A stretch of 64,000 bases of DNA. It comes from Diphasiastrum complanatum (taxonomy: Eukaryota; Streptophyta; Lycopodiopsida; Lycopodiales; Lycopodiaceae). The DNA is taken from assembly GCA_029204225.1 (NCBI GenBank), contig CM055097.1:37811106-37875105 (forward strand). The letters run 5' to 3'. This document shows positions 2,175-55,950 of the stretch, one piece after another. The notes below the pieces were generated by a model. It worked only from the letters and a program-made list of their open reading frames with translations, searched no databases and was not told where the DNA came from. Position 1 is the first letter of the stretch. Each line of letters begins with the position of its first letter. The translations under genes were made by a program, and so were the position numbers.

Positions 2175-4076
2175 TCACCATATCCATGATAGTGCTTCTT
2201 TGATGTTGACATCTTTGATGAGCTTGAGAGCTTTGCACCATCCTAGCACCTCCAAAATTGAGTCCTTCCAAATTTCATGTAGATGCTTGACTTTGAGGCT
2301 TGCTCCTTCTTCATGTGCATGCTCCTTCATGAGAAAATAAATATTTCTTCTTGATTTATTAGGATCACAAAGATCTAACATCATGTTACCACGATCTAGA
2401 GAATTAGACTCATCCAAATTGGCAAGACTATGCATGCTATAATAACAAAGTGTTTGCATCATATCTTCATGCTTGTTTACCATGCTAATCTCTGATCCAA
2501 TGAGGCTAAATACTTCATTATGGAGATGAGTGTCTTTAGAAGATGATTCACTTACTCTCATAAAGAGTTTACAATTTGCCTCAATACAAATTTTCAAACT
2601 ATGAGTGAACAAATCACTTTTGCTCTTGCATGACTCAAGAGCATACATTTGATGAAATAACCATTTGCTTTCCAATTGATTTAAAATCAATTTCAACCTT
2701 TTAAGAACATCATCTATGTTCTCAAGAGAGACTTCATACTCAGCTAGTATGGTTTTACTCCAATTTTGAGATGCAATGATCTCACTAAAGCAGATTGATT
2801 TATCAAATGACATAAGAGAAATAAGTATGTGATGTATACCACATGAGATATGCTCCTCTTTCCCTTGAAATGTGAGCCACATGGACTCAACCATATTTCT
2901 TGAGTTTCTTTTTGGAATCACAATTTGAGAAGGTCTCTCCTCCTCAATCCTTGGCACATTTGAACCTTGAGATGACTCCTTAAGATCCTCTTCATGGTGC
3001 TCCTTTTTGATGGAAATTTGAGACCTCCATATCTCATAATGATCACAACAACTATGACCACACAATATGCACTTCCTATGATTATCAAAATTACTTATGC
3101 TAAAAACATAAGTCCAAAAATCACCACAACTTGGCATGATTTTTCTAATATTGAAATCAAAAGGCATTTCCATCTCAATAAGGCTAACTACTTGCTTATG
3201 GATATAAGTGTCCACTTTGGATGCTTCACTTATTCTCATAAGAAGTTTACAGCTTGCCTTTAAGATTGAAAACTTACAATTTTCATCTTTATGAATGAAC
3301 ACATCATTCATGATCTTATTGAAACCAAAAGATCCTACATTATGAAGATATTTCCATTTCCTTGACTTCATAACTAATGTAAGCTTACAAGGAAAACATA
3401 TTTTGCTATCTTTTAAGGCATCACACTCAACTAGTATTGCCTTAATCCACCTTTGAGATACAAAAATCTCTTCAAAGCAAAATGGTACTTCATAAGTTGA
3501 CATGAGCGCATAAATGAAACTATTTTCATTTTGTGATTGCTCCTTATTCTTGATTGATTTCTCTTGGATAATAACAATAAGTTTGAACTTGTCCAAAGTT
3601 CCAAGCAAAATACTTTCCAAGGACATGAAATAAATCCAAGTTACTTTCATGAAAGTGACATCTGTCTTTGCATCTTGAACCAAACAATGCACTTCCAAAT
3701 GAAAAATTTCAAAAGATTTGACATGTGTTGTGATGGACTCTTGAAGACAAATCTTGCAAGTCTTTGTGAGACTCCAAGCCTCATTCACCTTTCTAGAAAG
3801 GAAACACCTTTCCTTGGACTTGTCCTTTTTGTATTTGCATTTTGAACTTGAAGCTCCATCCTTCACCTCGGCCCCCTTGATTTGGTTCTCCTTGGATGGA
3901 TTGGTCTTCTTTTTGTAGCATCTTGAGAAAAAATATCCTCCCTTGCCACAAAGGTTGCACTCAAGATCCTTTCTTTCCTTCAATAGGATGCCACCTATTG
4001 ATGCCATGTGAATAAAAACTTGTGATATGATTCTACAAATGTAATTTGTGACTTTCAAGAGACTAGATTTGAACAT
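2175..4076 (-). CDS. Gag-like protein of the non-autonomous element, with internal duplication
   Basis: An open frame of 636 codons; the first ATG is codon 4 of the open stretch (4076), with another at residue 27. Near residues 43-56 lies CNLCGKGGYFFSRC, a CCHC zinc knuckle with Tyr in place of His, followed by a Lys-rich region. This is the only recognisable gag feature; a Copia capsid domain is not evident. A second Cys cluster, CILCGHSCCDHYEIW, is near residues 339-353. Two segments of about 115 residues look duplicated: about 191-306 and 420-534. They share the order F(S/E)EI..SQ.W.K.IL.E, then NCK, then CKL(L/F)MR(I/V)SE, then D(T)..H..V.SLI. The frame is intact, which suggests selection or youth. 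I know no family for the repeat; the function is unknown. Confidence 0.7.
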   Translation of the reverse strand: MFKSSLLKVTNYICRIISQVFIHMASIGGILLKERKDLECNLCGKGGYFFSRCYKKKTNPSKENQIKGAEVKDGASSSKCKYKKDKSKERCFLSRKVNEAWSLTKTCKICLQESITTHVKSFEIFHLEVHCLVQDAKTDVTFMKVTWIYFMSLESILLGTLDKFKLIVIIQEKSIKNKEQSQNENSFIYALMSTYEVPFCFEEIFVSQRWIKAILVECDALKDSKICFPCKLTLVMKSRKWKYLHNVGSFGFNKIMNDVFIHKDENCKFSILKASCKLLMRISEASKVDTYIHKQVVSLIEMEMPFDFNIRKIMPSCGDFWTYVFSISNFDNHRKCILCGHSCCDHYEIWRSQISIKKEHHEEDLKESSQGSNVPRIEEERPSQIVIPKRNSRNMVESMWLTFQGKEEHISCGIHHILISLMSFDKSICFSEIIASQNWSKTILAEYEVSLENIDDVLKRLKLILNQLESKWLFHQMYALESCKSKSDLFTHSLKICIEANCKLFMRVSESSSKDTHLHNEVFSLIGSEISMVNKHEDMMQTLCYYSMHSLANLDESNSLDRGNMMLDLCDPNKSRRNIYFLMKEHAHEEGASLKVKHLHEIWKDSILEVLGWCKALKLIKDVNIKEALSWIW

Positions 4077-5666
4077 CTTCAACAATCTAGAAGGATCTAC
4101 AAAAGATCTAGCTCACAAACCTAAGAATCAATCTTCACAGTAATGACTAGTCACTTGGAAACTTTGCTTTGATCACTAAGACAAAAGCACACAATCTTTG
4201 AATCAAATCACTAAAGAAATCAGATCCAATCTCCTATTGGACTCATCAAATACCAATGACTCTTTCTTTTGAAAGCTGAAATGCATATGAAAAAGATTCG
4301 ACACCTAGATTTTCCTTTTCACTTGACTAGTTCTCTCAACACTTGAGATTCTTGAACAAAAGATGGGTTTTGTTTCAAATACATGAAAATCAAACTTAAT
4401 CACTTCTTTTGGACTCACTCTTGACCCAAATAATCTCACACTTGAGATTTAGAATGAATTTGATTTGATTTGACAACAAACTATACCACCAATTTTTCAC
4501 AAAGCTTAAAAAATTAGACAACTAGAGATTCACAAAGATCTCAACCATGCATGAATACTCAAATATAGACTCCTCATTCTGGACATCCAATGAGATCTCA
4601 AATTGACCCTCACACTCTCACAAAGAAAGTTGAATAGAACTAATTTGAGTTTCATACATACTATGTCAATTTTTGTTTAATAAATTGATTCAATCACCCC
4701 TATTGGATTCCACCAATTACTCTACCTCTTAAGACTTGGAATGAAATTCAAAATCAAAGGTTGTGATTTTTTTCACTAAGATATTGTGCTTCAAAGAGCT
4801 AATGCCACTTAGAAAGATTTGATCACCTGGGAAGAGACAAACTCTCCACCAATAACAACACAAAATGAGCTTCTAGATCTTGCCTTCTACAAAGGAAGGA
4901 ACTCTTAGAAAATTGGATCTCTCTCTACACATTTGCCATAGACACCTTAATGACTCTTTTCAAACCTTACAATCACTCAAACAAATTGAGTAGGGTTGAA
5001 CATTGTGACTTGTATCTCAATCTCTTTTCTAGAACTCTCAATTTAAGCCAATCTATGCCAAATTCTACAAAAGATTTGCATAGATGCTCTATATGCACTA
5101 GAAACTCTCAAAGGTTTCACTTGGAGGACAGATCCAAGGATGTTTTCTAGCAAATTGATGCATCTAAACTTGACCCTATCACTCTTGAACAAATCTAGAG
5201 TGATGGTACAATGGATTACAACCTCTCACCTTGCATATCACTTCTTAATCTATGATTTTTAGCAAAATCTCTCTTAACTTCAACATACACTCAAAGAATC
5301 AAAGAAGATCAATTAATGCACCTTTTTCAAGCTTCAATTTTAATTTTTTGGCTGATCTAATCCAGAACTAATCAAGGGATTAGATTCACTATAGAAAATG
5401 CTTGATTTTGCACCAAAAATCACTCAAATTGGGTATGTGAGTCAAATTCTACAAATTTTTGAAATTTTTCAGTCAAACACGGAGCTGTACGGCCTCACAC
5501 GTGTGAAAAGGGTTCCTACATCCCACAACAAGATCTGGACCAAAAATTTTGAGGATAGCTATCAAATCCAACTCGCTACACAAAATTTGACTAGTTTCCA
5601 AAAAACTGCTAATTTTGGCCTTGATTTGGATTAACCCTATCAATTTCAACAAAACCTCTTGTACTA
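4077..5666 (-). other. Non-coding leader of the non-autonomous element
   Basis: About 1.6 kb between the primer-binding site and the gag-like frame, AT-rich and without a convincing gene. It contains one more TCACACGTGTGA palindrome at 5495-5506. Such a long leader is common in non-autonomous LTR elements and may carry packaging signals; none can be identified by eye. Confidence 0.6.
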
Positions 5667-28199: not shown

Positions 28200-29433
28200 A
28201 GTTCCCTTTTAGCATCAATAAGATTGGTGTTTACGTCAAGGCCATTATCAAGCAATTGGCCAACACTAATAAGATTCTTGGTAAGCTAGGTACATAAAGA
28301 GCTCTAGAGAGAGAAAGAACTTTAGAGGATGCAAGCTTCAAGGGAATGTTCCCTATGCCTTTAATAGGACATTCAAAATCATTTGCAGTGTATATTGATT
28401 TCTTGACTCCCACATAAGGTGCAATAGAAGAGAAAGAGTCCTTGGAGCTACACATATGTGAAGAGGCTCCACTATCAATATACCATAGGCCGTCCTTCTT
28501 GAAAAGAGTAGATGAGAAACTAGAGACCATAAGAGATCCCTCTCCATCACTTGCAATAGTGTCTTCCTTCTCATTGGTAATACTGGCTTGCTTGAGTTGA
28601 TTCTTCTTTTTGAAGCAATTGGTGGCATAATGACCTTTCTTGCCACAACAAAAGCACTTGATCTTCTTCTTCTTGAGCTTGGATGATGAAGCATTAGAAG
28701 AATCATCTTCCTCCTCATCTTTGTCTTTGGATTTGACTTTGTCCTTGCTTGAGGATTGTTGATGTTGGTTCTTGCTCCTCCCTTTGTGCTTATCCTTGGC
28801 AAAGAGAGCTTTGCCATCATTATGAGTGAGAGAAATCTTGTCTATCCTCAAGAGCTTGTACTCTTGTGTTGATTCTTCTGAAATTAGCACACTTTGGAGA
28901 GCCTCCAAACTTGGTAGCTCCTCCTTAATGGCATAGGATTGGACAAGGTTATCAAATTCACTTCTCAAGCCATTGAGAATGACTTGAACTAGCTCATTTT
29001 GATTGATGGAATCACCAATGCAAACAAGCTCTCTATGAATATCTTTTACTCTCAAAACATATCTAGATGCACTCTCATCACTCTTTTGGCTACTTTGAAA
29101 GATTTGATTCCTAAGAGTGAGAAGCCTAGAGGTATTCTTAGCCTCATAGATAGTCTTGAGACAATCCCAAGCTTCTTTGGCTGTTGTACAAGTACCTATC
29201 TCCCTCAATATCTCATTAGAGACATTCATCTTAATGTAGTGGAGAGCCATCCTAGCTCTCTTTTTGTATTTTTGAACCTCTTGAAGAACTTGTGGTTCTT
29301 CTTCAAGGCCAAGAACTATGTCCATCACGTATTGAAGGATCAAGATAGACTCCATCCTCATTTTCCAAATTGAATAATTTGAAGTGGTCAATCTTTCACT
29401 TGGTTCCAACAAGGATGAGCCCATTGAAGACAT
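28200..29433 (-). pseudogene. Copia gag-protease, truncated
   Basis: From ATG at 29433 it encodes MSSMGSSLLEPSERLTTSNY, a full Copia capsid (IKMNVSNEILREIGTCTTAK ... RLLTLRNQIFQ), a Lys-rich linker and a zinc knuckle CFCCGKKGHYATNC. The intact protease motif WYIDSGASSHM follows. The frame shifts just after LYVPSLPRILL, and homology (SVGQLLDNGLDV in the neighbouring frame) stops at the junction with the plus-strand gag. No integrase or RT follows. It is linked to the LTR at 30190-30900 by the primer-binding site at 30177. Confidence 0.88.
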
Positions 29434-30176
29434 TTGAAGTGAAGGAAACTCAAATGATGAACAATAAATGTTGCTACACACTCTCAATAGGATCCAATAA
29501 TTGAGTACAATCTCCTCCTATGATAGATCTTGCAACTATTTGTGAATTGATTCTCACTAGCTACTCAAATCTCTCTAAAACAAGATCTATTTCACATCAA
29601 ATGATGGAGTATAGGCAAATTTAGGATCTAACACTCTTAGCACGTGTGAAATACACTAAGAAACCAAATTTGACACAAATACAATGATATTGCACGAAAA
29701 AAAATGGCTAAGATCTCAAAACAGTGCCTAGATCACATATAGATGAGATTGGCAAGCATACAACTGTGATTTTGGATCAACCAAGCAATCTCTTGACCAA
29801 ACCAAATGTGTCGACCCAGGTCTAGGTGCCCTACCTAACCCTCTTCAAAAGCTTATAACTTTTGATTGGCTCAACCAAATGGAATGAAACTGATTGCAAT
29901 AGAAACTAGACAAAAATAGCTTCAAGACAAGCTATCAAGCAAGATAAATGGATCAAACATGAGAGAGAACTTCCAAACTGAAATTGGATGTTCCTCACAC
30001 GTGTCTGAGCACCTGATTCTATACAGTACCAGGTCAAACCCAATCAATGTCCTTTTGATCTCTTTTGATCCAAGATTAAACAAGATATCTAGGAAAATGG
30101 GCCTTGACAACTTCTAGCTCAAGGTTGATGAAAATTTTTCACTTAGATGGATCAAAATGCATGGTAACCTTAGGTA
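29434..30176 (-). other. Leader between primer-binding site and gag
   Basis: About 740 bp, non-coding, AT-rich. It contains CACACGTGT at about 29996 and CACGTGTGAA at about 29641, the same palindrome family seen in the LTRs. Confidence 0.6.
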
Positions 30177-30900: not shown

Positions 30901-30939
30901 TAGATAATCTTTTTCAATTCTTCACAATTGATGCAATCA

Positions 30940-32230
30940 ATATTTGCAATGAAAAAAATGCAGAAGATCAATGGATACCAAGAATATATCGAACATATCA
31001 ATGGATCTTGATGCATCCCTCTGCAAAAGGCTCATTCCGAAAAAGAAAAAGATCAGATAACATATATAGAAGCTCTTGGAAAGGCAGGATAATGGATTTT
31101 AAAGTATCACCTGCCAGTCAATCTATCACGAAAGTTTTAGTTCAGCATGCTTATCTTCACAATGAGCTCAACATTCATGATCTGAATCCAAATGATAGAA
31201 GGAAATGCAATTGTAAGTTTTCATATTCAATTTCTTTATATTTATCATTCTTTAAATTATATTTTTCTTGAGATGTTTTTGTTGGTTTTGGAGATTTGTA
31301 TCCATCAAATTTATTTGAATGGCAATCAGTTCAATCGATTGTAGGAATAATCGATGTCATACATTCGGATATCGGTATTTTACAATATAAAGGTCGTTTT
31401 CCAAAATCACTTTTAGAGTCAGGAGTTTTTTTATTATGATCACACATATTTTCCTGATGAAAATGGTTTAGTTAGAAGATTAGAACCATATCCTCTACCA
31501 GATTTTTTGAGTGAGGAATGGATTTCTCCTGATGCAGCAATTTCAGAAAGTTTTTGATCTAGGCTAAATATTGATATTCAGAGTATATTAAAATGTAACA
31601 CTGGATCAAAGAATAATAGATTAAGTTGGTATCTACCTTTTATAATTTTTGTTGATTTTTTTTCCAAATGCAATGTTCGGAGAACGAAAACAATGTTTAT
31701 TTGTAAGGACTGAGTGCTGATATAATCACCAAGTTGTTGGATGATGGTTGGGATACAAAACAAAATCAGCAAGTTGAGTGTAGAGTATGTTACTCATGCA
31801 TGACATTTAGATATCACATCGAAAAGCAAATGCTCACTTTGCTGCTGTATTATAGAAGATGGATTAAATACAAAGATGTTTGGAAGCCACTTGATCAAGA
31901 TTTTGGTATAAAGCCCCAAGAGCAACTTCAGATAACAGTGAAAAGAAATTACAACATTCTTGCAATGGTTGAAGTCGAGGAAGATTGGTGTCTCAATCAC
32001 ATTCGATCAGAACTAGACATGTTGCAATTCAATCTATCTCAGTACTATCAATTTCGATTGAATGGTGTAAAGGTATGTTATGCCATATAAAAATATTTCT
32101 ATTTCTAAGTGAATTAGTTTCATAAAATATATAACTAAACAATTTCTCTTGTGCAAGTAAGAGTAAGGCAAGAAGAGAATATAAAATGCAAAGACATTGG
32201 AACATCCATCGAAATTGAAGATCCTTAGAT
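30940..32230 (+). CDS. Gene D: unrecognised spliced gene
   Basis: Open segments with splice signals can be chained. The first runs about 30940-31212 (DQWIPRIYRTYQWILMHPSA ... LNIHDLNPNDRRKCN; donor GTAAGT at 31213). The second is about 31290-31690 (GDLYPSNLFEWQSVQSIVGI ... LLESGVF; frame change, then YPLPDFLSEEWISPDAAI). The third is about 31728-32072 (KLLDDGWDTKQNQQVECRVC ... EVEEDWCLNHIRSELDML; donor GTATGT at 32073). A short last exon ends near 32226. A CRVCYSC motif is present. The LQITVK ... VEVEEDW.LNHIRSEL segment could be a small beta-grasp-like domain, but that is a guess. The start is unclear and there is at least one frame break. No transposon family is recognised. Confidence 0.4.
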
Positions 32231-32329
32231 TATGAACTATGGAAAATTGTATTATGTAATACAATTTTTTGTATACATCATTTAAGAATATATATGAACC
32301 ACTTTTTCTATGAGGCTCATTCATTTCTA

Positions 32330-32460
32330 TGATCTCCATTTCCATGGTGCAAAACACAATGTAATTGCAACAAGATAATATGAGTTTTCGATAGCAAGAT
32401 TCATTGTCTTCTACAAAAAATGCACTATCTCCATTGGGGAGATCTTCAGTCACTTGAACT
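32330..32460 (-). pseudogene. Second copy of the gene A last exon
   Basis: The minus strand reads VTEDLPNGDSAFFVEDNESC and continues to VFCTMEMEIIEM. At DNA level the phrase GATCTCCCCAATGGAGATA matches GGTCTCCCCAATGGAGATA in the exon near 33030, and the ends (GGAGATCATAGA against AGAGATCATAGA) also match. It is a duplicated exon lying downstream of gene A. Whether it is spliced into anything is unknown. Confidence 0.45.
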
Positions 32461-32905
32461 CCAGTTGAACGCTTGCCCTTATTGAAGTCTCGTATATATC
32501 GGTTGTATTTTTTGTCTTCATTGTCTTAGTCTGTATTGTTCTTGTCTTGGCATATTTGGATATGTTCAGATGATGATCTAATCAAAGCTTTGCTGCAACA
32601 AATCTAAGTGAACTAATGTCGCATGTTTGAATTGGTTGTGGCAAAGGTTCGATCAGATCATCATTCTAAACTTATCCAAAAAAAGACCATGGTAAAGACA
32701 AGGCAGACCAAGGCTATGAAACACACACATGTCAAAAAATAGTAAAAATTGAAGATGAATGAATCATAACCTGAATTGATAAGAGGAAAAAAAAACATGT
32801 AAGAACAGCCATAGAAAAATTGTAAGTATATTTCTATTAAACTTTTTTGTACATGTGTCTCATCCACATAAAGTGAGACGAATATTTAAACAGAATCAAC
32901 TATCT

Positions 32906-33296
32906 ATGATCTCTAAATCCATTTCTCTAGTTGGAAGTAGCTTGGGTGGAGAACAGTCGGCCACTACAATTGGATATGAATTTTTGATCACAATCTTTAT
33001 GGTCTCCTGTCTGAAGTGCATTATCTCCATTGGGGAGACCTTCGGACATTTAAACTGAAAAAAAAAACATAAACACGATTAAATGTAATTAATCAAAGAT
33101 CAGTTAATAGGAGTTTGTATATGAAAAAAATAAAAACACAATTAAAAATAATTAATCGAATATTACCTCTTCCAGTTTGGAAGTCCATCTTATAATGCAA
33201 GCCAATTAAAAAAGTGTTTGGCATTGCATACGGTATACCAGCCACAGCTGACAGAATCAATCTGTTGGGAGGGCTGTAGAATCCAAATTTGAACAT
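32906..33296 (-). CDS. Gene A: short unrecognised gene behind paired 71-bp units
   Basis: ATG at 33296, five bases downstream of 71-bp unit 1, opens MFKFGFYSPPNRLILSAVAG and IPYAMPNTFLIGLHYKMDF. A donor-like GTAATA follows at 33166. A pyrimidine-rich acceptor with TTTCAG at about 33055 leads to a segment whose two open readings are CPKVSPMEIMHF... and GLPNGDNALQTGDHKDC. The exact splice frame does not close cleanly. The second reading holds a Gln then Cys spacing that distantly recalls the end of a Ulp1 catalytic domain, so this could instead be the last part of gene B. The separate ATG and the unit pair upstream argue for its own gene. Confidence 0.4.
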
Positions 33297-33301
33297 TATG
33301 A

Positions 33302-33372
33302 GATATTGGATCAACGCGCAGGATGTAAGAATAAAATCTACAACAAAAATAAGCACGCGTCGATCCGATATC
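33302..33372. promoter_or_regulatory. 71-bp paired-inverted unit 1
   Basis: Starts GATATTGGATCAACGCGC and ends GCGTCGATCCGATATC, the inverse of the start with two or so changes. Total 71 bp with an unrelated AT-rich centre. It lies five bases upstream of the gene A ATG (minus strand). Confidence 0.85.
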
Positions 33373-33387
33373 AAAAAATTTTGATTG

Positions 33388-33458
33388 AATATCGGATCAG
33401 CACGCACGTTGGGAAAATAAACCAATCAATAACTACAAGGGCGCGTCGAACCGATATT
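33388..33458. promoter_or_regulatory. 71-bp paired-inverted unit 2
   Basis: Starts AATATCGGATCAGCACGC and ends GGCGCGTCGAACCGATATT. Total 71 bp, 15 bp from unit 1. Centre unrelated to unit 1. A minus-strand TATAAATT lies right beside it at 33463-33470. Confidence 0.85.
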
Positions 33459-33478
33459 GAAAAATTTATACCTCTGCA

Positions 33479-34977
33479 TCAACCATTTTTAGCTTCGAGT
33501 ATGCTTTTACATTTGGTACTGGAAATAGTTCTAGTATTTTCTGTATATGGGTCCTGGCAATTTTGTGTGTGTGTGTAATAGAGTTCATTCAAACAAACTG
33601 GATTACACACACCCTCATCATTGATGTACAAGGACAACACATATAAGTTCCAATGATCACTAAAATCAAAAAACAAGAAATTTATAAAAATCAATGTGAA
33701 ATCAAAATTCAATAAAATACAATCTGAAAAATAGTCACTTACTTTGTTATATATGACAGCACAAGAATTGGAGTCCCTAGTTTGACGTATTGGAGCATAT
33801 CATCGTGCAGACTTTTGAAATCAGAAAAATTATATGCTGCCATGAATTGAAGAGGAAACAATGCAACATCTATAAACAATGGGGTCTGGAAGAACTCCAT
33901 CCAATACTGAATGGCTCCACCTCCTACATTGTCCCCTAGCATTTTATCCCTACTTTCTAATTCAGCAGTGTCTAAACTAGAAAGGGGGAGACCAACATTG
34001 GTCTTCGACATCCTAAAATTATATCGAGGACCTAAACCTTTAAGACATGTATTTAACAATTGGTCATACTGTACATATTGAGGACTATTTACAAAGGCAA
34101 GTGCAGGGGGTGCCAGAAGTAACACATATAAACCACATAAAGAATTGTCATTCAAAATTGATTCTACCTTTACACTAACAAAATCATCTAAATCGCTTCC
34201 AACAACAGGAGGAGGGGAACTAATATTTAGGGGTCGAGGAGGAGGAGGAGATTTAGGAGGTGGAGATTTATTAAGAGAGAAAGATTTAGCAGGAGAAGTT
34301 AAAGATGGAGTGGAAGGAGAAGAAGGAGACTTAGGAGGAGAAGAAGGAGAATTAGGAGGGGAATGAATAGAAGAAAGAATAGTATTAAGAGGAGTTGGCT
34401 TGGAAAAATTCCTCGCTTTAGATGGAGGGTCAAGAGACCTCCTCTTCTTTGAAACACTCCCGTTTTGTATAAGAATAACAAGCCGTGTTGGTTGAGATTG
34501 CTTGTGTTTTTTCCTCTTTGAATCTTGTTTTGGAGGAGAGGAGGGAGCAGGTCTAAAGTATTCAACAAACTTGCCATATGTGTTCCGAAGCCTGAACACT
34601 ATGTTGAAATCCTTGGGCATGATGGTCACCCTCTTGGCATGGACAGCTGCAACAACAATATCAAAATTTTTTTTCACTTGGAATTCCTCATATGTTGTGT
34701 GCAATGCCTCAATTGTCGTTACCGTCCATCTCACATCTGCAGATAGACTTCTTGTCACCTGCCTGATGGACCTCTGTATGTGAGATTTTGGAATCAGAAG
34801 ATTATTTGTCTTCTGAAGCTTCCGAATATCCTTGAGCCATGGAGGGTCTCTTCTTCTGCCTCTTGGCCTAAGAGGAAGTGGTGGTGGACGAGGTGGCGGT
34901 TGTGGATTTCTCTGAGCCGCACCTGAAATTGGTATTCCACCTGAATGCCCACATGCTGTCTGCTTGGTCCACGCCGT
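33479..34977 (-). CDS. Gene B: degenerate histone H3 fused to a C48-protease-like region
   Basis: Exon 1 (34977-33743) and exon 2 (33659-33479) join through a GTAAGT donor and a TTTTAG acceptor in frame, about 471 codons. The start reads TAWTKQTACGHSGG, matching the H3 tail ARTKQTARKSTGG; the expected ATG is ACG (34977-34975). After a Pro/Arg stretch comes an H3 fold: WLKDIRKLQKTNNLLIPKS (alpha-N), then VRWTVTTIEALHTTYEEF (alpha-1/2), then HAKRVTIMPKD, identical to H3. K4 is kept; K9 is lost. A Pro/Ser-rich linker (about residues 150-250) follows. The C-terminal part (DNVGGGAIQYWMEFFQ ... PILVLSYITNDHWNLYVLSL) has the order of a Ulp1-type domain up to its catalytic His (HW). Asp and Cys are not found in this frame. 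The H3 match is seen directly; the protease is inference. There is no in-frame ATG near the start. Confidence 0.7.
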
Positions 34978-34985
34978 TAATGTGT

Positions 34986-35056
34986 AGTAGCGGATCAACG
35001 CGCAATAATGTTGATTACAGGATCAGACCTCAGGTCGGGCATGTCGAAGCGATACC
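34986..35056. promoter_or_regulatory. 71-bp paired-inverted unit 5
   Basis: Contains GCGGATCAACGCGC near the left edge and GTCGAAGCGATACC at the right edge; 71 bp when aligned to the other units. It begins eight bases upstream of the H3-like start of gene B (minus strand). Confidence 0.78.
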
Positions 35057-35150
35057 AGAGCTCAACAATTATGTAAGCTGGTAGCGGAGGGGCGGCGCAA
35101 GCATATAGGTTCCAATAGTTTCGAAAATTTTGACAATATTTTTTTTCCTA

Positions 35151-35221
35151 GAATAACAATTCGACACGCGAGGTTCAAATGCAGCTAATACATCATCTGC
35201 TGGGCGCGCTGATCCGATATC
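35151..35221. promoter_or_regulatory. 71-bp paired-inverted unit 6
   Basis: Left end GAATAACAATTCGACACGCG is the most diverged of the set. The right end GGGCGCGCTGATCCGATATC is close to consensus. Total 71 bp. It lies farther from gene B than unit 5, in its presumed leader. Confidence 0.72.
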
Positions 35222-35320
35222 CCATATGAAAAAAAATATTACTGGCACGCATAATGAAAGACTTATGAAAATGTTCTAAATGAACATTATCTCAAAGGAA
35301 AAATTTTCGTCTTTACGGTG

Positions 35321-35330
35321 CTTAAATAGG
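35321..35330 (-). promoter_or_regulatory. TATA-like box for gene B
   Basis: Minus-strand CCTATTTAAG. If it is used, transcription would start about 30 bases on, placing units 6 and 5 in the 5' leader of gene B. Confidence 0.4.
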
Positions 35331-35625
35331 ACGAGAGATTGTAATAATTCTCCTCGTTCATTTTTCAGTGATATCCATTAATCAATTGTTTATAATTTTT
35401 TTAATGATTATTCTAGGAGGCTAGTGATTTTCTATTTAATGCATTCCGGCGCAGGTACAAATTCTAGGGTCAGGGCTAATGATGATTAGTTGAATCTAGT
35501 ACTAGACTAGTCAATGTATTTCAGCTTAGGTACAAATTAGTCTCATTCTGATTGGTGGATAAATATAGGTTGTAAATCACAATTCGTTATTTGACAGATG
35601 TATGGCTGTGATAAAAAAGAATTGG

Positions 35626-35634
35626 CTATAAATA
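35626..35634 (+). promoter_or_regulatory. TATA box for gene C
   Basis: CTATAAATA, the plant consensus. Transcription would start near 35658, placing units 3 and 4 inside the 5' leader and just before the ATG at 35913. The space between the two TATA boxes (about 300 bp) would be a shared divergent promoter. Confidence 0.6.
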
Positions 35635-35713
35635 TGTGCACCACTTGACTTATTTCGATTTCCTAATCTTTTATTCTGAACTCTCTAGCCTTCTTGTTTT
35701 TCTTCATTCTCCT

Positions 35714-35784
35714 GATATCGAATCGACGCGGGCCAACCCTTGCTGTGCATGCTCGTATTCATTCTGGGTCGCCGAATCGATATC
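35714..35784. promoter_or_regulatory. 71-bp paired-inverted unit 3
   Basis: Starts GATATCGAATCGACGCGG and ends TCGCCGAATCGATATC; exactly 71 bp. The centre is more GC-rich than in other units. Confidence 0.85.
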
Positions 35785-35832
35785 AACCACTACCGACCAG
35801 TTCTCTTTAAAAAATTTCATTCTCGGCCTTAC

Positions 35833-35903
35833 CGTATCGGATCAGTGCGCGTACTTTGCTTTATTCTTCTACCGATATTTATCAGTCGCGTTGAACCAAT
35901 ATC
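35833..35903. promoter_or_regulatory. 71-bp paired-inverted unit 4
   Basis: Starts CGTATCGGATCAGTGCGC and ends GTCGCGTTGAACCAATATC; exactly 71 bp. It ends nine bases before the ATG of gene C. Confidence 0.85.
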
Positions 35904-35912
35904 GGATTCAAT

Positions 35913-37340
35913 ATGGCTAGTTCCTCCATGGCCTCAAATGACAAACTTATGGATTTTTTTAATGCCAGTGACATTCCATCTGACAAATTAGAGTATTTTG
36001 CTAGTATTTTTTTTGCTCCCTTTGATATCGATAAGCTAGTTTATGAGAATCGTTATAATTTAATTTTTTATCTTCATAATTTTTCTCAAATTATTAGTAC
36101 TCCTGTCATGGATATAGATAATTTTTGTTTCGTTCATTTTCAGGACCTTGTACATTTCCAACCATCTTTTAAGCATAAACACAATAGAAAGTACTCTAAC
36201 CTGCATGACCATTTCAAAAGAAATATATACTGTGATATCCACAAAAGAATATGTCGCCTTCTAATCAAAGGAATGGCTTTTGTGTTCAACATATCTGCTG
36301 AAATTCTAGATGATGAGTTTGTTGACTCTTCAACTGTTCCATTGATCGAAACATCTGCACCTACTCCAGTTGATGTAAATGATGTAGATACTGATATAGG
36401 GGTTGAAGTTAAAGCTTCTATGGCTTCAGATTATCAAAAAACTCTCCCTCGTTCTATAATCCTCTCTGATTCTCTTCCATCTGCATCTTCTGTAAATCAA
36501 TTAACTCTACTTGATGTTCTTTTATATTTTATAAATGATGAATGTTATATTTCATTTAATGATATAGAAGATGTATTGAATCTGAGAGAGGATGAAATCC
36601 TCTCAATTTTTGCTCAAAATTTATCAAAATTTTCTGACATTGTTGATTACTCATATGATGACTATGAAAGTGAGATAGATTATGATAAAGATGGCAACGG
36701 GAAATCTGGCAATGAGGCGTTGGAGGCCATGATTGAAAAATCTAAAACCTATGAAAAGACTTTGCCTACAAAGGAGGAATTTTTGGAATTTCAAAAAAGA
36801 TATTCCCCTAGGGCTAGATATATCCCCTCCAGAAATGTAGAGGCCATTAGAGGACATGACATCAGTAGAGCAAACATCATTGACTACGATGATTATGATA
36901 TGGTAAGTAGATATTATATTGGTATTGATATTGTTTAGTTTTCTTATTTCTTATTGGTATTAATATTGTTCAGTTTTCTTATTGAGCTTGCAGTGTTATG
37001 TATCATTCTAAATCTATTTTCTTTTCTCGTTTACAAGATGGTATTGAAATAGATGCCTTTGGTATGAGACATAGAGGTGTCCGAGGTGTATCAACCGGGA
37101 GAGAAGATGTTTCTCTATCTCATTATTTGAAAAACTTTCAAAATAATGAGATTTGTATATATCATTCATCTTATAATCCATATGCAACCATTGTTATTAT
37201 GGCCATCAAATCATTATCAGTTTGTTTAGGAGGCCATAAGTACGCAAGAGGAACATATAAAATAATTTTTGTGAAGAGAGATTCGGCTATCAAGATATTG
37301 GGTTATACTCCCAATGAGACTACCAAAAGATCATCTGCAA
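35913..37340 (+). CDS. Gene C: unrecognised spliced gene, divergent from gene B
   Basis: ATG at 35913 (MASSSMASNDKLMDFFNASD) opens about 330 codons ending at a GTAAGT donor (36902), after an acidic, Tyr/Asp-rich end (DYSYDDYESEIDYDKDGNG; NIIDYDDYDM). The first 110 residues are aromatic and probably globular. A second open segment begins near 36994 after TTGAGCTTGCAG (YHSKSIFFSRLQDGIEIDAF ... HKYARGTYKIIFVKRDSAIK). The splice frame does not close cleanly, so one change or another acceptor is needed. The end runs into Copia C sequence near 37345, so the true C-terminus may be lost. No family is recognised and there is no transposase motif. It shares the 71-bp unit pair with genes A and B. Confidence 0.5.
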
Positions 37341-37599
37341 TGGCCCTAAACATCTACAACTAATCTTGGATTACAAGAGTGGTAGATTAGCCACATTCTA
37401 GAGTACTTTTGGTGATGTCACGATATTTGATAAAATACTTGTACCCCATGGTACTTGGCTGATCTTGTTGGTCCTTTGTGGAGCACGAATGATTTTGTGT
37501 CCTGAAACAATTTCATGTTGTGTGTTGTGAAATTGTTTGTGAACATTTTTGTTTTGTGTGTCTTTTCTATCAAAATCAGGGTGAAAAGCTAGAAAAGCT

Positions 37600-38111
37600 T
37601 TGGCAATAGAAATATTTTGTTTCTTCAGCTCCCTCTCAAAGCATGATAGCTTGATGACTCCAAGACTGCTCCTTTGTTTCTTGAACAGATCTTTGTCTAA
37701 GGCCTTTGTGAAAATGTCAGCAACCATCTCCTTCGTTCCAATAAAAGTAGTCTACAACATCTTCTTCCTGATCAGATCCCTTATCAAGTAGTACTTGATT
37801 GCAATGTGTTTCGTCCTTGAGTGAAACACAGGGTCTTTTGTCAGATGTATTGCACATGTGTTGTCCATCTCAAAAACCAGAAGTTCATTCCTCATTTCAC
37901 CCAGTTCGTCAAAGAACTGTTTGAGCCAAATGATTTCATTGGCCATCTTTGCTATTGCAATGTATTTTGCTTTGCAAGATGACTGAGCCACAATGGTCTG
38001 CTTCTTGCTGACCCAGAGAATTGCTAATCCTGATGCGATGGTGCATTCTCCTGAGACACTTTTACAGTCATCCTTGAGAGATGCCCAGCTAGCATCACTG
38101 TAGGAAAGCAT
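37600..38111 (-). pseudogene. Copia C RNase H
   Basis: Reads MLSYSDASWASLKDDCKSVS, VSKKQTIVAQSSCKAKY (family SSCEAEY, so the catalytic Glu is Lys), IIWLKQFFDEL, DNTCAIHLTKDPVFHSRTKH and TKALDKDLF. The preceding Gln codon is TAG, which closes the frame at 38112. There is a frame break near 37750. Confidence 0.85.
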
Positions 38112-39500
38112 CTAGAACCCTGCATCACGAGAATAACACAAACCAAAATCTTTTGTTAATTGAAGATATTGCAAAATTCATTTTGCAATCTTCCAATGAG
38201 TCGATCCTGAATTCATATAGAATTGACTCATCTTGAACACGACATAAGAAATGTTAGGATGTGTGTTATCTGCAAGGTACATCAATGATCCGATCAACAT
38301 TCTGTATGGTGTAAGCTACATCAATTCTCTTTCTTCTTCAGTCTTCGAACAATTTTCATTCGTCAGGACTGTTCCTGCAAGCATTGGAGTATTCGTTCCT
38401 TTGCAGTTTAACATTCTGAAATCTTCTAAGATTTTTTGGGTATATCTGGATTGATGAAGGTGTAATTTACCTCCCTCATAGTCCCTGTCAATTTGTAAGC
38501 CAAGATAACATCTGGCTTCTCCCAGGTCTGCAATCTTGAAATGTTTTGAGATATCGTATTTCACTTCAGCAATAAGCTTCTCACTCTTGCAGAGTATCAG
38601 AGTGTCATCCACATACACAACTACAATGATGATCTTCCCATTTGTAATTCTTACATAGACATTGGAATCAACCATTAGTGGCTTGAATCCTAAGGATTTC
38701 AGGGCTTGATCTTTCTTCTTGTACCATTGTCGCACTGACTGCTTCAAACCATAGATACTCCTATGCATTCTGCATGCATATGTAGGCAGTGAATTTGAGA
38801 TATAGCCTGGGGGTTGATCCATGTAGACTTCTTCGTCTAGCTCACCATGCAAGAAGGCTGTCTTCTCATCCACGATGTGAATCCTGAGATCATAAGTAGC
38901 TACATATGCAAATAGTAAATGTAGGAACAAATGTTTCACGACAAGAGAGAAGGTCTCATTATAGTCAATACCATATCTCTAAGAAAATTTCCTCGCTACA
39001 AGTCTTGCTTTATACTTTGAGATATCTCCATTCGGTCCATACTTCAACTTGTATACCCACTTGTATTTTATAGTCTTTTGCTTATTTGGTAATGGTTGCA
39101 ACATCCATACCTAGTTCTTCCTCATGGATTCCATCTTCTCATTCATGGCTTGGATCCATTTGTCCTTCTCTGGACATTCAATTGCTTCCTCGAATGTCTG
39201 TGGTTCACCACTGAATCCACAAAACTCTTCTGACGTAGAAGTTGAGCTACCTGGCACAAATCTTGTTAGCGCTCTTTGTTCTCTTGTGGACCTTCTAGGA
39301 GATCCTCCTGGAACTGCAATGCTTTTGTCTTTATCTGCTTTGCTAGGTCCAAAACCATTTCGGTTTACAGGTATTGTAGCAGTAGGTTGCTTCGCGAATG
39401 CTTGTTCGTCTGATTCATCACTCGAATGAGATGCGACTCGAACATCTTCGTCTGAGTGTTCGTCCTCTGCTCCCTCGTTCATAGTACTATCTTTCAAGAA
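38112..39500 (-). pseudogene. Copia C reverse transcriptase
   Basis: Recognisable blocks are IHIVDEKTAFLHGELDEEVYM, SIYGLKQSVRQWYKKK, the active site VVYVDDTLIL (near 38605) and DLGEARCYLGLQI. Upstream are MESMRKN then TAG then VW (Gln replaced at 39111-39113) and a Ser/Thr-rich integrase-RT linker with RRSTREQRALTRFVPGS. Stops also fall at about 38940-39000. The YVDD box itself is intact. Confidence 0.86.
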
Positions 39501-40590
39501 CTTATTAACTTATATGATCATCATTGGCCATTGTTCTGCTCTCATCAAATTTGACATCTCTGACTGTCTTCACTATGTTGGTCTCTGACATATAGACTCT
39601 ATAGTATGACGAATTATTGTCATATCCTACAAGATATCCCTGTTCTGCTTTCTCATCAAGCTTCTTTTAAAGCTTATTAGGAACATGTGCATAAGTTGCC
39701 CAGCCAAAGATACGGATGTGAGTTAGATTGGGTTTTCTACCCCACCATAATTCGTGTGGTGTCGTGTGAGGAACACCAGACTTTCTTCTCCTGTTCTACA
39801 TGTAAGCAGCTATAGCTACTGCTTCAGCCCACATCACTCTTGGAGCCTTCGAGTAGGCCATCATGCATCTGGCAGCTTCCATTAGAGTCATGTTCTTTCT
39901 TTCTGCAACACCGTTGCGCTGCGGTGTGTAAGATGCAGTTCTTCTGTGAATGATGCCATGATCATTGCAGAAGTCAGTGAATCGATTTGAGATGTATTCT
40001 CCACCTCGATTTGTTTTGATCTACTTCACTTTATTACTAGTGCACCTTTCTGTCCAATTCACATACTCTGTGAATTTGTCAAATACTTCTAATTTATTGT
40101 GAATAAAATAGACTCTGGCAAATTTACTATAATCATCAATGAAAGTTATATAATACTTTGAACCTCCTACTGAAATCACGTTGAAAGGTCCACAATTGTC
40201 AGAATGCACTAACTCCAGAATCTTGGTCGTTCTGTAGGAGTCCTTGACAAAAGGAGTGCGTGACATCTTACCCTTCAGACATGCATCACAGGTCATCAAA
40301 CTAGTTGCATTCGAGATGCTCACCCTTGTGACTGCTCCATGATGGCTTGCTTGATATAGTGTCATTGAATTCATATGGCATAGTCTCATGTGCCATAGAG
40401 TATTTGGCAAATCATCATGAATCTGATGCACTTGATCTGCAAGCAGGCGTACCTTCAAGTAATACAAATTGTCTTTTTTTCTACCTTGAGTGATCAGAGT
40501 AGTGGTACTTGCATCAACAACATTGCATGCTTCATCTAAGAATGTTACATGCATCCCTGCATCAGCTACTCTTGCCACTGATAGCAAGTC
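39501..40590 (-). pseudogene. Copia C integrase
   Basis: The HHCC zinc domain (LWHMRLCHMNSM ... CDACLKGK) and first core Asp (LVHSDNCGP) lie in an open segment 40587-40024, closed by a TAG in place of Gln (40021-40023, VK-Q-I). The second Asp (TNRGGEY) and Glu (NGVAERKNMTL) follow near 39990 and 39900, then the HIRIFGWATYAHVPNKL region. Several stops are present. Confidence 0.85.
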
Positions 40591-40881
40591 CTACTGCAGT
40601 GTAGGCACAAATAGAACATCTTCAAGTTGTCTGTCTCTATCGTTTGTGTTGAGCCATAGTGAACCAATACCATTCACTTGATGTTTTGATCCATCTCCAA
40701 GAATGATAAATCTTGATGGATCTGCACTTCGGAAATCAGACATGATTCGTCTTGATGTAACAAAGTGTGAGGTAGCTCCTGAATCAAGAATTATCTCTTG
40801 TGTGTTAGGTGTTGATACTGCACACATGTCTGCACAAATATAGGCAGTTGAATTATCATGATTCGATCTTTCTTCGCCCAC
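40591..40881 (-). pseudogene. Copia C protease
   Basis: Contains the intact active-site motif ILDSGATSHFVTSRRIM, then IILGDGSKHQVNGIGSLWL and LEDVLFVPTLQ. A TAG (40591-40593) replaces the Gln that joins it to DLLSVARVADAG in the next domain. Upstream (higher coordinates) the gag part is lost. Confidence 0.85.
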
Positions 40882-40925
40882 CTTTGAGCTCTCTGGCTCC
40901 TCGACATAGGACGACCTATTATTGT

Positions 40926-41813
40926 TCTCTAACTGAAATCTGATTTCACACGTGTGAAAATGAGGCTGTAGTATGGCCTGTAGACAGAGTTTAAAGTGTG
41001 CAAAAGCTTAGTTGCATTGAAATCAATCACAATCACCATACATAGAGAGAAAATCCATGTTTCTCCTTGAGGCTCGAAAAAGTTTCTATCTTTTCACTAT
41101 GGAGAATGAGAATACATAGTAAAAGACACTTCCTTTGCAAAGTTAGGTGAAAATCTAGCATATAATAAGGAAGTAGACTCAACTTTCTTGCCATGAAATC
41201 CCTAGCCTAGATCCAAGAGTCATACTTGGTAGGTGCATGGTAGGTACAAATCTCATCATAAATCATGGTCTAGATCGTACAAAGTAGGAATCACTACCAA
41301 ATGGAAACAACCACTCCTCTTGACTTGTGGTAACCTACATTAGGTGTGAGTTGACAGGTGGCACTTTGGCCATTCAAGTGTCTAACAAAAAATATTGACA
41401 AAATATACAATATTCTACATGCCTAGATTTGCTAATGTAGGCAATTTTTCACAGGTTGTAGGGACAATAAACAATGTTTTGCGAGGATGCATTGCATTGG
41501 TGATAGTATCTGTACATCAGCTTGAAGTTTTGCTTCAGTACCAGACACTTGTTTGAAGTGTGATTTTGGGTACAAATAGGACACCAAACATTGTCCTGTC
41601 GAGGGTACTACTGCTACTAAGGATCTGGATGTGGCGTTGTAGTATTTTGAGCCTTCAATTTTTGGTCAAACTAGGTTGTGAGCTACTTCATTTGCTATTT
41701 ATGTAGCTTCATCAAACCATATGTCGAGTCATATGTTATTAAATGAAAGCCTTGTCAACTAGCAATGGCATAAGGTTGGTGGTTTGTTGCATCCATAGAT
41801 ATTCTTGATTAGA
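40926..41813. other. Non-coding stretch, possible LTR remnant
   Basis: No gene. TTTCACACGTGTGAAA at 40944-40959 is the same palindrome as in the LTRs elsewhere, so this may be the remains of another LTR element. No terminal motifs or second copy were found. Confidence 0.4.
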
Positions 41814-52650: not shown

Positions 52651-54380
52651 TCAACATTCAAGAAGTCTACAAAGCTTGAGGATCAAGAAGGACCCCCAAA
52701 GGCATCTCCATCAACCACCAAAGTCAAGAAGGACAAATCAAAGGTGAAGTGCTACTATTGTAGCAAGATGGGGCATTATGCCTCGGAATGCTTCAAGAGG
52801 AAGCAAGATCAAAGCCAAGCCAACATGAGCAAAGAGGAGGAGGAGAAGAGTTCACATGAGGACTCTCTCATGATGTCCATATTTTCTTCAACAAGCTTCA
52901 AAGGAGAAGATCCTTGGTGGATTGACTCGGGTGCTAGTTCACACATGACTAGTAAAAGGGAGTTTTTCTCTTCTCTCTTATCTTATGATGGACCTATAAA
53001 GTCTATCTATACAGCAAATGATGAAGCTTGTAAGATTGAAGGAGCTGGTAGCATTCCCCTTTGCTTAGGATCTTCCAAAAAGATCAACATAGAAGGTGTT
53101 TTGTACATTCCTACAATAACAAATAATCTACTAAGTGTTGGCCAAATGGTAGACAATGGTTTCAATGTTGACTTTGCTTCAAATGAATGTTTCATCAAGA
53201 AGAAGGGTAAGATAGTGGCTAAGGGCACTAGACTTGGCAAACTTTATAAGCTGGATGCATTTGTGGATACTAATGTTGTCATGTTGGCCGAGAAGAGCAA
53301 GATATCTACCTTTACTTTATGGCACAAAAGACTTGGACATGTCAACTCGGGTTGCATGGAGGCTATGATCAAGGAGGAGTATGCTTTAGGCCTACCAAGG
53401 TCTATTGGGAAGGAAGACAAGGTTTGTGAAGCTTGTGCCTTATCCAAGGCACATAAGAAGGTGTTTCCTAACTCCATCACAAAGTCATCTCATCCTCTTG
53501 AACTCATACACTCGGATGTGCACATTGCTAGCACCAAATCTAATGGAGGTTCATCCATGTTTTTAACCTTCATTGATGACTACTCAAGATATTGTTGGGT
53601 GTTCTTACTTTCCTTCAAGTCTCAAGTATTTGATACTTTTGTAAAGTTCAAGTTGTTTGTGGAAAAGCATCATAATCATAGCATCAAGATTCTTAGAAGT
53701 GACAATGGTGGAGAATTCATCTCCAATGAGTTCAAGGCCTTTTGTGAGGAGGAAGGGATCAAGAAAGAGACTTCTTGTCCTTACACTCCTCAACAAAATG
53801 GAGTTGCTGAAAGAACTAATAGAACATTATGTGAATGTTCTAAGGCTTTAAGATTAGATGCTTGTTTGCCCAAATCCTTTTGGGGTGAGTCTCTTGTATG
53901 TGCAAACTACTTGATGAATAAGGTGTCTTGCAAAGCCATTGAAGGCAAAACTCCTTATGAGATGTTGTATGGAAAGAAACCCAATCTTAATCACTTGAAA
54001 GTTTTTGGGTGTATATGTTATGTGCATGTGCCATTGGAAACAAGAACCAAGGAGGATCCATCTTCCACAAGAGGGATCATGCTTGGATATGCAAGCTCAA
54101 GCAAAGGCTACAAAGTCTATCTCCCATCCTTGAACAAATTTGTTGTTTCAAGGGATGTCATCTTTGATGAACATCATATGCATATGCTTGAAGAAGGCTC
54201 AAGTGCTCCAACAATCAAGAAGAAGATGGCCGAGGAGCAAGATCTTGGTTTTGAGGAGGAGCTCATGGAGGAGCAAGCACCAAACCCACCTATCACACCA
54301 AGGAGATCTTCAAGGGCAAAAGTGGAGCCATCAAGGCTCACATATCAAGGCAAAGGACAGCAAGTTGAGGGTATCTCACT
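52651..54380 (+). CDS. Copia E nucleocapsid, protease and integrase
   Basis: In the gag frame after the TGA. It has a zinc knuckle CYYCSKMGHYASEC (about 52750), protease WIDSGASSHMTSK and the pre-integrase zinc domain (LWHKRLGHVN ... CEACALSK). The integrase core follows with LIHSDVHIA, LRSDNGGEF and NGVAERTNRTL, so all three catalytic residues are present. The C-terminal region NLNHLKVFGCICYVHVPLE and PRRSSRAKVEPSRL lead to RT. The open frame runs to 54432, but homology moves to another frame at about 54380 through a single-base change. Confidence 0.93.
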
Positions 54381-55565
54381 TCTTATGCTTTATCTAGTTT
54401 TGAAGAACCGTCTAATGTTGAAGATGCATTGAACTCCAAAGAATGGTATAAAGCTATGTTGGATGAGTATGATGCCTTGATTGAGAATGAAACTTGGTTG
54501 CTTGTTGAGAGACCTCAAAGGAATGTAATAGGATGCAAGTGGGTCTTCAAGCTTAAGTTGAATGCAAATGGGAGTGTTAACAAACATAAAGCAAGATTAG
54601 TTGAAAAAGGTTATGCTCAAGAGAGAGGGATAGACTATGAGAAAACTTTTGCACACGTGGCCAAGATGGTCACAATAAGACTAATCATTGCACTTGCATC
54701 ACATTTTGGATGGATTCTATGTCAAATGGATGTCTCTAATGCTTTCTTGAATGGTTTTTTGGAAGAGGATATCTATATGGAGCAGCCACAAGGGTTCATC
54801 AAGCATGGAATGGAGAACAAAGTATGCCATCTCCAAAGAAGCATCTATGGCTTGAAGCAAGCCTCGAGATCTTGGAATTCAAGACTACATTGCTATCTTA
54901 TTTCACTTTCTTTTGTTCAAAGTGAATATGATCCTACTCTTTACATTAAGTTTGATGATGTTGGTATTGTACTTTTACTCATTTATGTAGATGACATCAT
55001 CATTAGTGGAAATAGTGTTGATGGTATTGAAAAAATCAAGATAGATCTATCCTTAGAGTTCAAGATGGTAGATCTAGGGTGTCTTCACTTCATCTTAGGC
55101 ATAGAAGTACTTAGAGGGTCTGATTTTATCTTTATAAGTCAAGTAAACTATGCTCAAAGTCTTTTGAAGAAGTTTAAGATGGAAGTATGCAAAAGTGTTG
55201 ACACACCAATGGAGCAAGATGTAAAAGTGCCAAATGAAGATGATGAAAGATCCTTCATGGACATCACTTTGTTTAGGCAAATTATAGGTTCCTTAATGCG
55301 GATCACTATAACTAGACCAAATTTTAGCTTTAGTGTATGTAGGTTGAGCCAATCCATGCAAAAACCATTGAATATCCATTGGAAAAAGGCTAAGAGGATT
55401 CTAAGATACATCTCGGGTACATTGGATTTTGGGATTCTATATAGAGGAGATGTGATTAGCCTTCATGCATTTAGTGATTCAGATTTTGCAGGGGACAAGA
55501 GGGATAGGAAATTAACAAGTGACTATTCAACTTTCATAGGAGAAGGTGTGGTTTCATGGCTTTCA
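54381..55565 (+). CDS. Copia E reverse transcriptase and RNase H start
   Basis: Reads NSKEWYKAMLDEYDALIENE, VIGCKWVFKLKLNANGSVNK, QMDVSNAFLNGFLEEDIYME, SIYGLKQASRSWN, the active site LIYVDDIIIS (about 54984) and MVDLGCLHFILGIEV. RNase H begins HAFSDSDFAGDKRDRKLTSD. An extra A in a run of A at about 55565 changes frame just before the SSTEAEY motif. Otherwise intact. Confidence 0.93.
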
Positions 55566-55950
55566 AAAAAAGCAAGAAACTATATCTCTATCTTCAACCG
55601 AGGCCGAGTACAAAGCTTTGACAACCACTACAAAGGAGGTACTTTGGATCAAGAGATTATTGGTGGAACTAAATATTATGGATTCAGAGGAGGCACCAAT
55701 CATCTACAATGACAATATATCAGCCCAACACCTTGCATCTAACCCAATCTTCCATGCAAGATCTAAGCACATTGAGATATGCCATCACTTTGTGAGAGAA
55801 ATGGTGCAAGCCAAGGAGATTGCTTTGGAGCATGTTCCAAGCAATGAATGTGTAGCTGATCTACTTACTAAACCACTTAAAAAGACACATTTTATGAAGT
55901 TCAGATCATCACTTGGAGTGATTAGTAAAGCAATGATTGAACCAAGCTAG
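55566..55950 (+). CDS. Copia E RNase H end
   Basis: After the homopolymer frameshift the frame continues QETISLSSTEAEYKALTTTT (catalytic Glu), VLWIKRLLVEL, IIYNDNISAQHLASNPIFHA and RSKHIEICHHFVREMVQ, ending VISKAMIEPS-stop at 55950. The domain is complete apart from the shift. Confidence 0.92.

Follow-up and report, generated by a model that had tools for sequence, protein, structure and literature searches.

What can hold the length of a DNA unit constant while its interior is free to change? The question is raised by six units of about 71 bp with conserved inverted ends, found in the genome of the clubmoss Diphasiastrum complanatum within a stretch of 64 kb (C6:37811106-37875105, referred to as the window), where they lie near the starts of three genes that we call A, B and C. 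We could establish that such units keep a constant length over unrelated centres, occur in high copy number and have their place in a mobile element with terminal inverted repeats, and that gene B of this element is histone H3-like. Most probably the units are DNA operators of the element, putative inverted site pairs bound by a symmetric protein complex; that a protein binds there, which protein it would be and whether it would activate, repress or protect the genes we infer from the sequence.

Spacing and arrangement of the units

The inverted ends had been proposed by a reading of the window made from the letters alone (the sequence-only reading), and they were borne out by a position weight matrix (PWM) built from five units at a time and scored on the sixth, over the whole 64 kb and both strands. 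All 12 unit ends outrank each of the 127,798 background positions, the weakest left end (unit 4, at 35152) included, and the units reach pair scores of 35.6–51.4 compared to at most 18.9 for background facing pairs spaced 20–300. Units A1 and A2 (Table 1) are apparent duplicates of each other and hence no independent pair in this test. The arms of a unit match each other partially, at 10–15 of 18 positions. Five of the six units do have the proposed length of 71 bp, whereas the PWM match of unit 4 starts one base later than had been read and gives 70 bp. Similarly, the claim that the centres share nothing is correct in general but not for A1 and A2, which appear to stem from an old 86-bp tandem duplication (58/86 identical; uncorrected P of the centre similarity 0.0016 in 30 tests). 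The one other pair with a low P is unit 4 and the reversed C1 (centre P 0.00155, 30 tests, uncorrected), the remaining centres in the window being mutually unrelated.

A search of the whole genome (1.745 Gb) with the 18-mer of the ends, allowing up to 2 mismatches, gave 2726 + 2753 = 5,479 matches on the two strands, compared to 4 + 4 = 8 for the reversed control. Facing pairs, with any spacing of 56–86 bp allowed, matched 78 + 74 = 152 times and the control 0 + 0 times. Unit lengths were counted in the 100 pairs listed of these 152, which fall on 97 distinct places, some of them duplicates by sequence. A length of 71 bp was found at 81 of the 97 distinct listed places, 70 and 72 bp at 6 each, and 64, 67, 69 and 75 bp at one each. 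The sequence-only reading had named a genome-wide distribution without a peak at 71 bp as the result that would speak against it, and the peak is there. A rough grouping of the centres that ignored the strand led to 13 clusters, and a strand-aware comparison with one representative of each reduced these to 8 groups among the listed pairs, with 71 bp being the commonest length in seven of them and 72 bp in one. These 8 groups, rather than the 97 places, are the independent evidence, because members of one group share ancestry. The peak over 8 groups of unrelated centres supports the proposal that the spacing is selected.

The arrangement of the units was followed in 30 loci around copies of gene B, which share ancestry and include 7 near-duplicates. 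They hold 180 units, 147 of 71 bp, 28 of 70 bp and 5 of other lengths. Seven of the 30 loci show eight units; most of the remaining ones end on the C side together with the fetched locus or have suffered losses, and the complete loci carry four pairs in the order A, B, D, C. In the standard layout the members of the A pair are 85–87 bp apart and those of the C pair 119 bp; the units of the B pair precede the ATG of B by about 11 and 105 bp and are 94 bp apart, and the further pair D follows at about 530 and 742 bp upstream of B, with members about 211 bp apart (200–247). Three of the four pairs lie within the B–C intergenic stretch of about 1.4 kb. The distal D unit is a 70-mer in 24 of the 25 loci holding one, the window included (counted by reading; the exception is L292). 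Strict pairing before three starts is therefore not supported: complete loci have four pairs, and the ‘pair’ at B in the window is accidental, a deletion product, because this copy lost two units, one each of the B and D pairs, and retains one of each. The distances of 5, 8 and 9 bases between units and starts are as had been read, but the start of B in the window is an ACG and not an ATG. No gene start was recognised beside the D pair when the frames were read by eye, and the terminal repeats of the copies that were read showed no unit.

Pairs of units whose centres differ from these were also observed in the loci L322 (about 2961-3708) and L323 (2401-2555), with spacings of about 94 bp (one unit incomplete) and 84 bp. 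Neither locus matches A, B, C or the further element genes E and F at E≤0.01, and they are perhaps diverged or non-autonomous relatives.

A mobile element with a histone H3-like gene

The gene order of the element is E>, <A, <B, C>, <F, with E and F starting near the ends and pointing inward. Homology to other copies delimits a remnant at 30924..37347 of the window, while the copies share more with each other beyond both sides: the window copy is truncated at either end and has neither the two terminal inverted repeats nor gene F. Copy C8 is bounded by such repeats, about 35 bp long (CATTAGGGGATAGTAGAGCTCAAAATGGGCCCTTT and CATTAGGGGAAATATGGGCTCAAAATGGGCCCTTT). The termini CATTAGGGG...GCTCAAAATGGGCCCTTT meet unrelated flanks at 6 left ends (C15d, C12, C6c, C7b, C3, C8) and 6 right ends (C6b, C6c, C7b, C16b, C8, C15a), the right end of C7b being in unexpected orientation. 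Among ten copies fetched for their ends, 4 of the 10 left stretches and 4 of the 9 right ones contain an end and the others do not. The distance from terminus to terminus in copy C6c is 10,518 bp, as calculated from coordinates. No target site duplication was seen by eye in the two copies having both ends as expected (C8 and C6c), a number too small to be firm. In its terminal inverted repeats and constant termini in differing flanks the element agrees with a DNA transposon of class II. An LTR-like (long terminal repeat) direct repeat had been considered as its boundary and was dropped, because the same sequence is another dispersed repeat that recurs in the window (4115-4546 of C3 matches 19937-19511 of the window) and because the ends are accounted for by the terminal inverted repeats.

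The pieces of gene F show no credible Pfam or NCBIfam family. Its motifs LDES, GDLK, CLYC (C5, C15) and GMEKSH (C8) resemble, by eye, a DDE transposase with a zinc knuckle, and gene F may encode a transposase. Gene B was scored in 101 copies including the window, among 12,978 first-look candidates; they are 71–100% identical, and 97 of the 101 contain at least one internal stop (rows read by eye). The suggestion that A, B and C form the gene set of one mobile entity is supported by the many copies of B, the stretch shared between them and the terminal inverted repeats in differing flanks. Genes for a capsid, a packaging ATPase or a DNA polymerase, which would mark a Polinton-like virus or another provirus, were not present among the open reading frames scanned, which cover part of the frames of a few copies. 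Two copies on C15 (L300 at 25.48 Mb and L302 at 26.79 Mb) are 99.7% identical over 7.9 kb, which would fit a recent segmental duplication or an assembly duplicate.

The product of gene B, whose two exons splice in frame, consists of an H3 N-terminus, an H3 fold, a Pro-rich basic linker and a C-terminal domain, the C-terminal extension comprising some 330 residues. The fold is recognised by Pfam as Histone (3.4e-14), its best PDB matches are H3, and 34 of 92 fold residues are identical to H3. K64, R69, R72, R83, H113, R116-T118 and D123 of H3 are retained, whereas R63 is replaced by P and L126 by I. From 23 protein matches to B, mostly to the ordinary H3 fold, one was informative, the gene model P0019 of Diphasiastrum complanatum itself, with 58% identity in the linker over 11–16% of the query; no relatives of the C-terminal domain were found outside this genome.

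The N-terminal tail was compared in 23 copies, after dropping the 7 near-duplicates from the 30. The start codon is ATG in 20 of these 23. K4 is kept in all 23, T3 in all 22 readable copies and R8 in 20, while K9 is lost throughout (G in 22, R in 1) and S10 is replaced by H in 22 and by Y in 1. In the window copy six of the first eight H3 tail residues are retained and six of the other 35 (Fisher P 0.003), with K14, K18, K27 and K36 being absent according to one pairwise alignment. As all 23 copies keep K4 and lack K9, this form of H3 is ancestral and predates the spread of the copies. Purifying selection on B among the copies could not be demonstrated: median dN/dS (nonsynonymous to synonymous rate ratio) seems low, with 0.54 for the fold, 0.44 for the C-terminal domain and 1.17 for the linker, but a non-coding stretch read as codons gives 0.51–0.67 and other frames of the fold and C-terminal domain 0.36–0.91. 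Exon 2 of B shows 0.57 in its own frame versus 0.53 and 0.34 in the others, and the values elsewhere are 0.84 for C exon 1 (4 copies), 0.75 for A exon 1 and 0.37 for A exon 2.

Methylation of H3K9 accompanies transposon silencing in plants. A transposon-made H3 that is unable to take the K9 mark therefore suggests an anti-silencing device, and the K9-less H3 may help the element to escape silencing by its host. Going further, the element could carry its own chromatin: the H3 fusion, with its K4 block (ARTKQTAR) and without K9, would be directed by sequence to the 71-bp dyads, perhaps forming a particle of tetrasome size there, and would keep the promoters active and unsilenceable; we regard this extension as unlikely.

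Table 1: Genes, units and TATA-like motif of the element remnant (positions in the window)
Feature	Position	Strand	Length	Remarks
Gene E relic	30924..32087	+		5' end missing
Gene A	32902..33296	-		exon 1 33296 to 33138 (donor uncertain), exon 2 33054-32902; longest model 104 aa
Unit A1	33302..33372		71 bp	5 bp upstream of gene A ATG (gene A on - strand)
Unit A2	33388..33458		71 bp	
Gene B	33482..34977	-		exon 1 34977-33743, exon 2 33659-33482; splices in frame
Unit B1	34986..35056		71 bp	8 bp upstream of gene B start (ACG)
Unit 4	35152..35221		70 bp	distal unit of the fourth (D) pair of other copies
TATA-like box	35627..35634	+		87 bp upstream of C pair; motif only
Unit C1	35714..35784		71 bp	
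Unit C2	35833..35903		71 bp	9 bp upstream of gene C ATG
Gene C	35913..37360	+		exon 1 from 35913, exon 2 to ~37347; splice sites uncertain, 3' end missing

Genes A and C found no family in the library scans, and exon 1 of C had no protein match at E≤10; the homology of C to other copies ends at about 37347. Viral DNA-binding domains (Bro-N/MSV199-like), suspected in gene C by eye, were rejected after Pfam and PHROGs gave nothing credible. For C exon 1 and the C-terminal piece of B, structures predicted from single sequences reached a mean pLDDT (predicted local distance difference test) of 33.8 and 34.3 and were not used. With a few exact peptide patterns, which reach close relatives only, IMG/VR yielded no relative of B, of C or of an F fragment and the GTDB genomes none of B, and phage records gave no blastn match. 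The dyad pattern itself had scattered phage and bacterial matches among those listed from IMG/VR and GTDB, which we treated as chance; in a PWM scan of 254 such loci the 15 best rows all come from different loci.

Some further features were observed in and around the remnant. Part of A exon 2 is present a second time, in decayed form, at 32369-32458 (-; 16/30 residues, two internal stops), and a tandem duplication of period 35 (32-nt copies, 94% identical) lies at 36917-36983, near the exon–intron junction of gene C. The long imperfect hairpin at 32518-32719 weakly matches the Rfam families MIR7533 (40.2 bits) and MIR9481 (24.3 bits), both scores being far below gathering, and is perhaps a repeat like a miniature inverted-repeat transposable element (MITE). 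Copia-type frames flank the remnant on the left (28231-29487) and on the right (37401-41007, read by eye), and Pfam assigns copia-type gag/pol to the left one as well as to 51-1034 and 52744-55712. A 636-aa open frame at 2175-4085 (-) has no Pfam family.

Possible operators, RNA hairpins or histone particles

As an operator, each unit would present a pair of 18-bp sites (about GATATCGGWTCRRCGCGC) that are inverted relative to each other and have their centres 53 bp apart. This corresponds to 5.05 turns at 10.5 bp per turn, which puts both sites on one side of the helix. Both sites of such a dyad would be occupied at once by a symmetric protein complex, most likely one that the element itself encodes. 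With two dyads at the start of each of the three genes and another pair between B and C, the dyads would switch A, B and C together and might also prevent their silencing. The five-turn spacing favours a protein complex because a complex needs a fixed spacing and a hairpin loop does not. We also count in favour of operators that the observed/expected ratio of CpG is 1.3–2.2 in the three unit stretches versus 0.3–0.7 in the larger surrounding pieces.

Several observations weigh against operators. The units are only 5–9 bp away from the start codons, which would fit a role in the mRNA too, and the TATA-like box, if used, would put the C pair inside the leader. No unit is found at the starts of genes E (copies C8, C3) and F (C8, C5, C15), and in the pieces of the element proteins scanned no DNA-binding domain beyond the histone fold was recognised. 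Moreover, among copies of one unit class the identity of the arms is higher than that of the centres in 2 of 8 classes, or in 6 of 8 if restricted to non-CpG columns; arms that are not clearly better conserved are expected if most changes followed insertion.

The sequence-only reading had left the choice between a two-site protein complex and RNA hairpins in the 5' leaders, by which the translation of A, B and C or the fate of their RNA would be controlled. Hairpins could explain why the units adjoin the start codons (5, 8 and 9 bp) and would agree with the TATA-like box upstream of the C pair, and the six units have predicted folds of −13.9 to −24.8 kcal/mol, calculated without a shuffled control. 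However, the arms of one unit fit each other no better than arms of different units and RNA pairing is thus unsupported: pairing within units is 12.33 compared to a permutation mean of 12.58, with 74% of 720 permutations as high, and 14.83 versus 15.06 with G-U allowed (82% as high). Double changes by the same base are not significantly in excess either (4 versus 4.33 expected, or 3 versus 1.67 with three variable columns left out, 17.5% as high), although tests of covariation on six units have little power. A hairpin has no need of a fixed 35-nt loop, the D pair is without a recognised gene start, and Rfam has no match at the units. Hairpins are therefore an improbable explanation and the protein complex fits better.

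A different protein reading starts from gene B. H3–H4 tetrasomes hold about 70 bp of DNA, as stated in PMC9659345, close to the length of a unit, and the H3-like protein, perhaps together with plant H4, could form a tetrasome-like particle on the 71-bp unit, with one of the 18-bp sites on either side. The H3 residues retained in the fold (K64 to D123, as listed above), the extra C-terminal domain of B and the dyad symmetry of the unit would suit such a particle, while the changes R63 to P and L126 to I would not. Sequence-specific DNA binding by B would have to be assumed, 71 bp equally represents five turns between two sites, and the agreement in length may be chance; we consider the particle very unlikely. 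To the same degree we doubt that the units serve transposition or replication, as sites of a transposase or an origin-binding protein, instead of gene control. The crowding of three of the four pairs in the B–C intergenic stretch would be in line with this, but the units are internal and far from the termini, and the copies that were read had none at their terminal repeats. That they are functionless small insertions like MITEs, which are also multi-copy with inverted ends, is next to ruled out by their occurrence at the same places in the element copies, by unrelated centres of one length and by flanks in which no direct repeats were seen by eye. DNA operators thus remain the reading that we prefer.

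Related systems and significance

The nearest working analogies are VANDAL/VANC and CACTA, and the clubmoss element fails the tested defining features of both. According to PMC5735166, VANDAL elements of Arabidopsis, whose VANC proteins act against silencing, share with it an element-specific motif in many copies in non-coding stretches and a plausible link to silencing. The motifs of VANDAL and Mutator-like elements (MULEs) form same-strand arrays, however, whereas those of the clubmoss are in inverted pairs at a fixed 71 bp, and its proteins have no family match except histone, neither Pfam VANC nor a MULE transposase being found in the pieces scanned. CACTA elements (Spm/En, Tgmt; TNPA-type), as described in PMC2613891, have terminal inverted repeats and a repeated 12–20 bp motif, direct and inverted, which is the proposed site of an element protein. 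These motifs are subterminal, in contrast to the position before gene starts reported here; the clubmoss termini are CATTAG instead of CACTA, no 3-bp target site duplication was seen in two copies, and the pieces scanned did not match Tnp2.

Single captured and sometimes extended H3 genes are described in PMC9145170 for viruses (Manila clam xenomavirus, Dishui Lake phycodnavirus, Sylvanvirus and others). Six viral H3 are 73–87% identical to host-type H3 in the fold and three have longer N-terminal tails, whereas B is only 34/92 identical, is extended at the C-terminus by some 330 residues, has introns and resides in a plant genome. A cargo gene possibly acting against silencing is also known from fungal DNA transposons, with the difference that it is a TET/JBP dioxygenase there (PMC12730594) and a histone H3 in the clubmoss element. 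No report of a transposon-encoded histone was found in the literature searched, other phrasings, most subscription journals and preprints being outside this search, and the main text of a 2026 review of gene capture by plant transposons (PMC13317346) does not contain the word histone.

If true, histone capture would join the known anti-silencing tools of transposons, and an H3 that keeps K4 and lacks K9 in a mobile element would give a handle on how genomic parasites evade silencing by H3K9. The dyads with their fixed length and free centres would offer a clean system for studying how a DNA-binding complex engages two sites, one genome alone providing thousands of natural examples.

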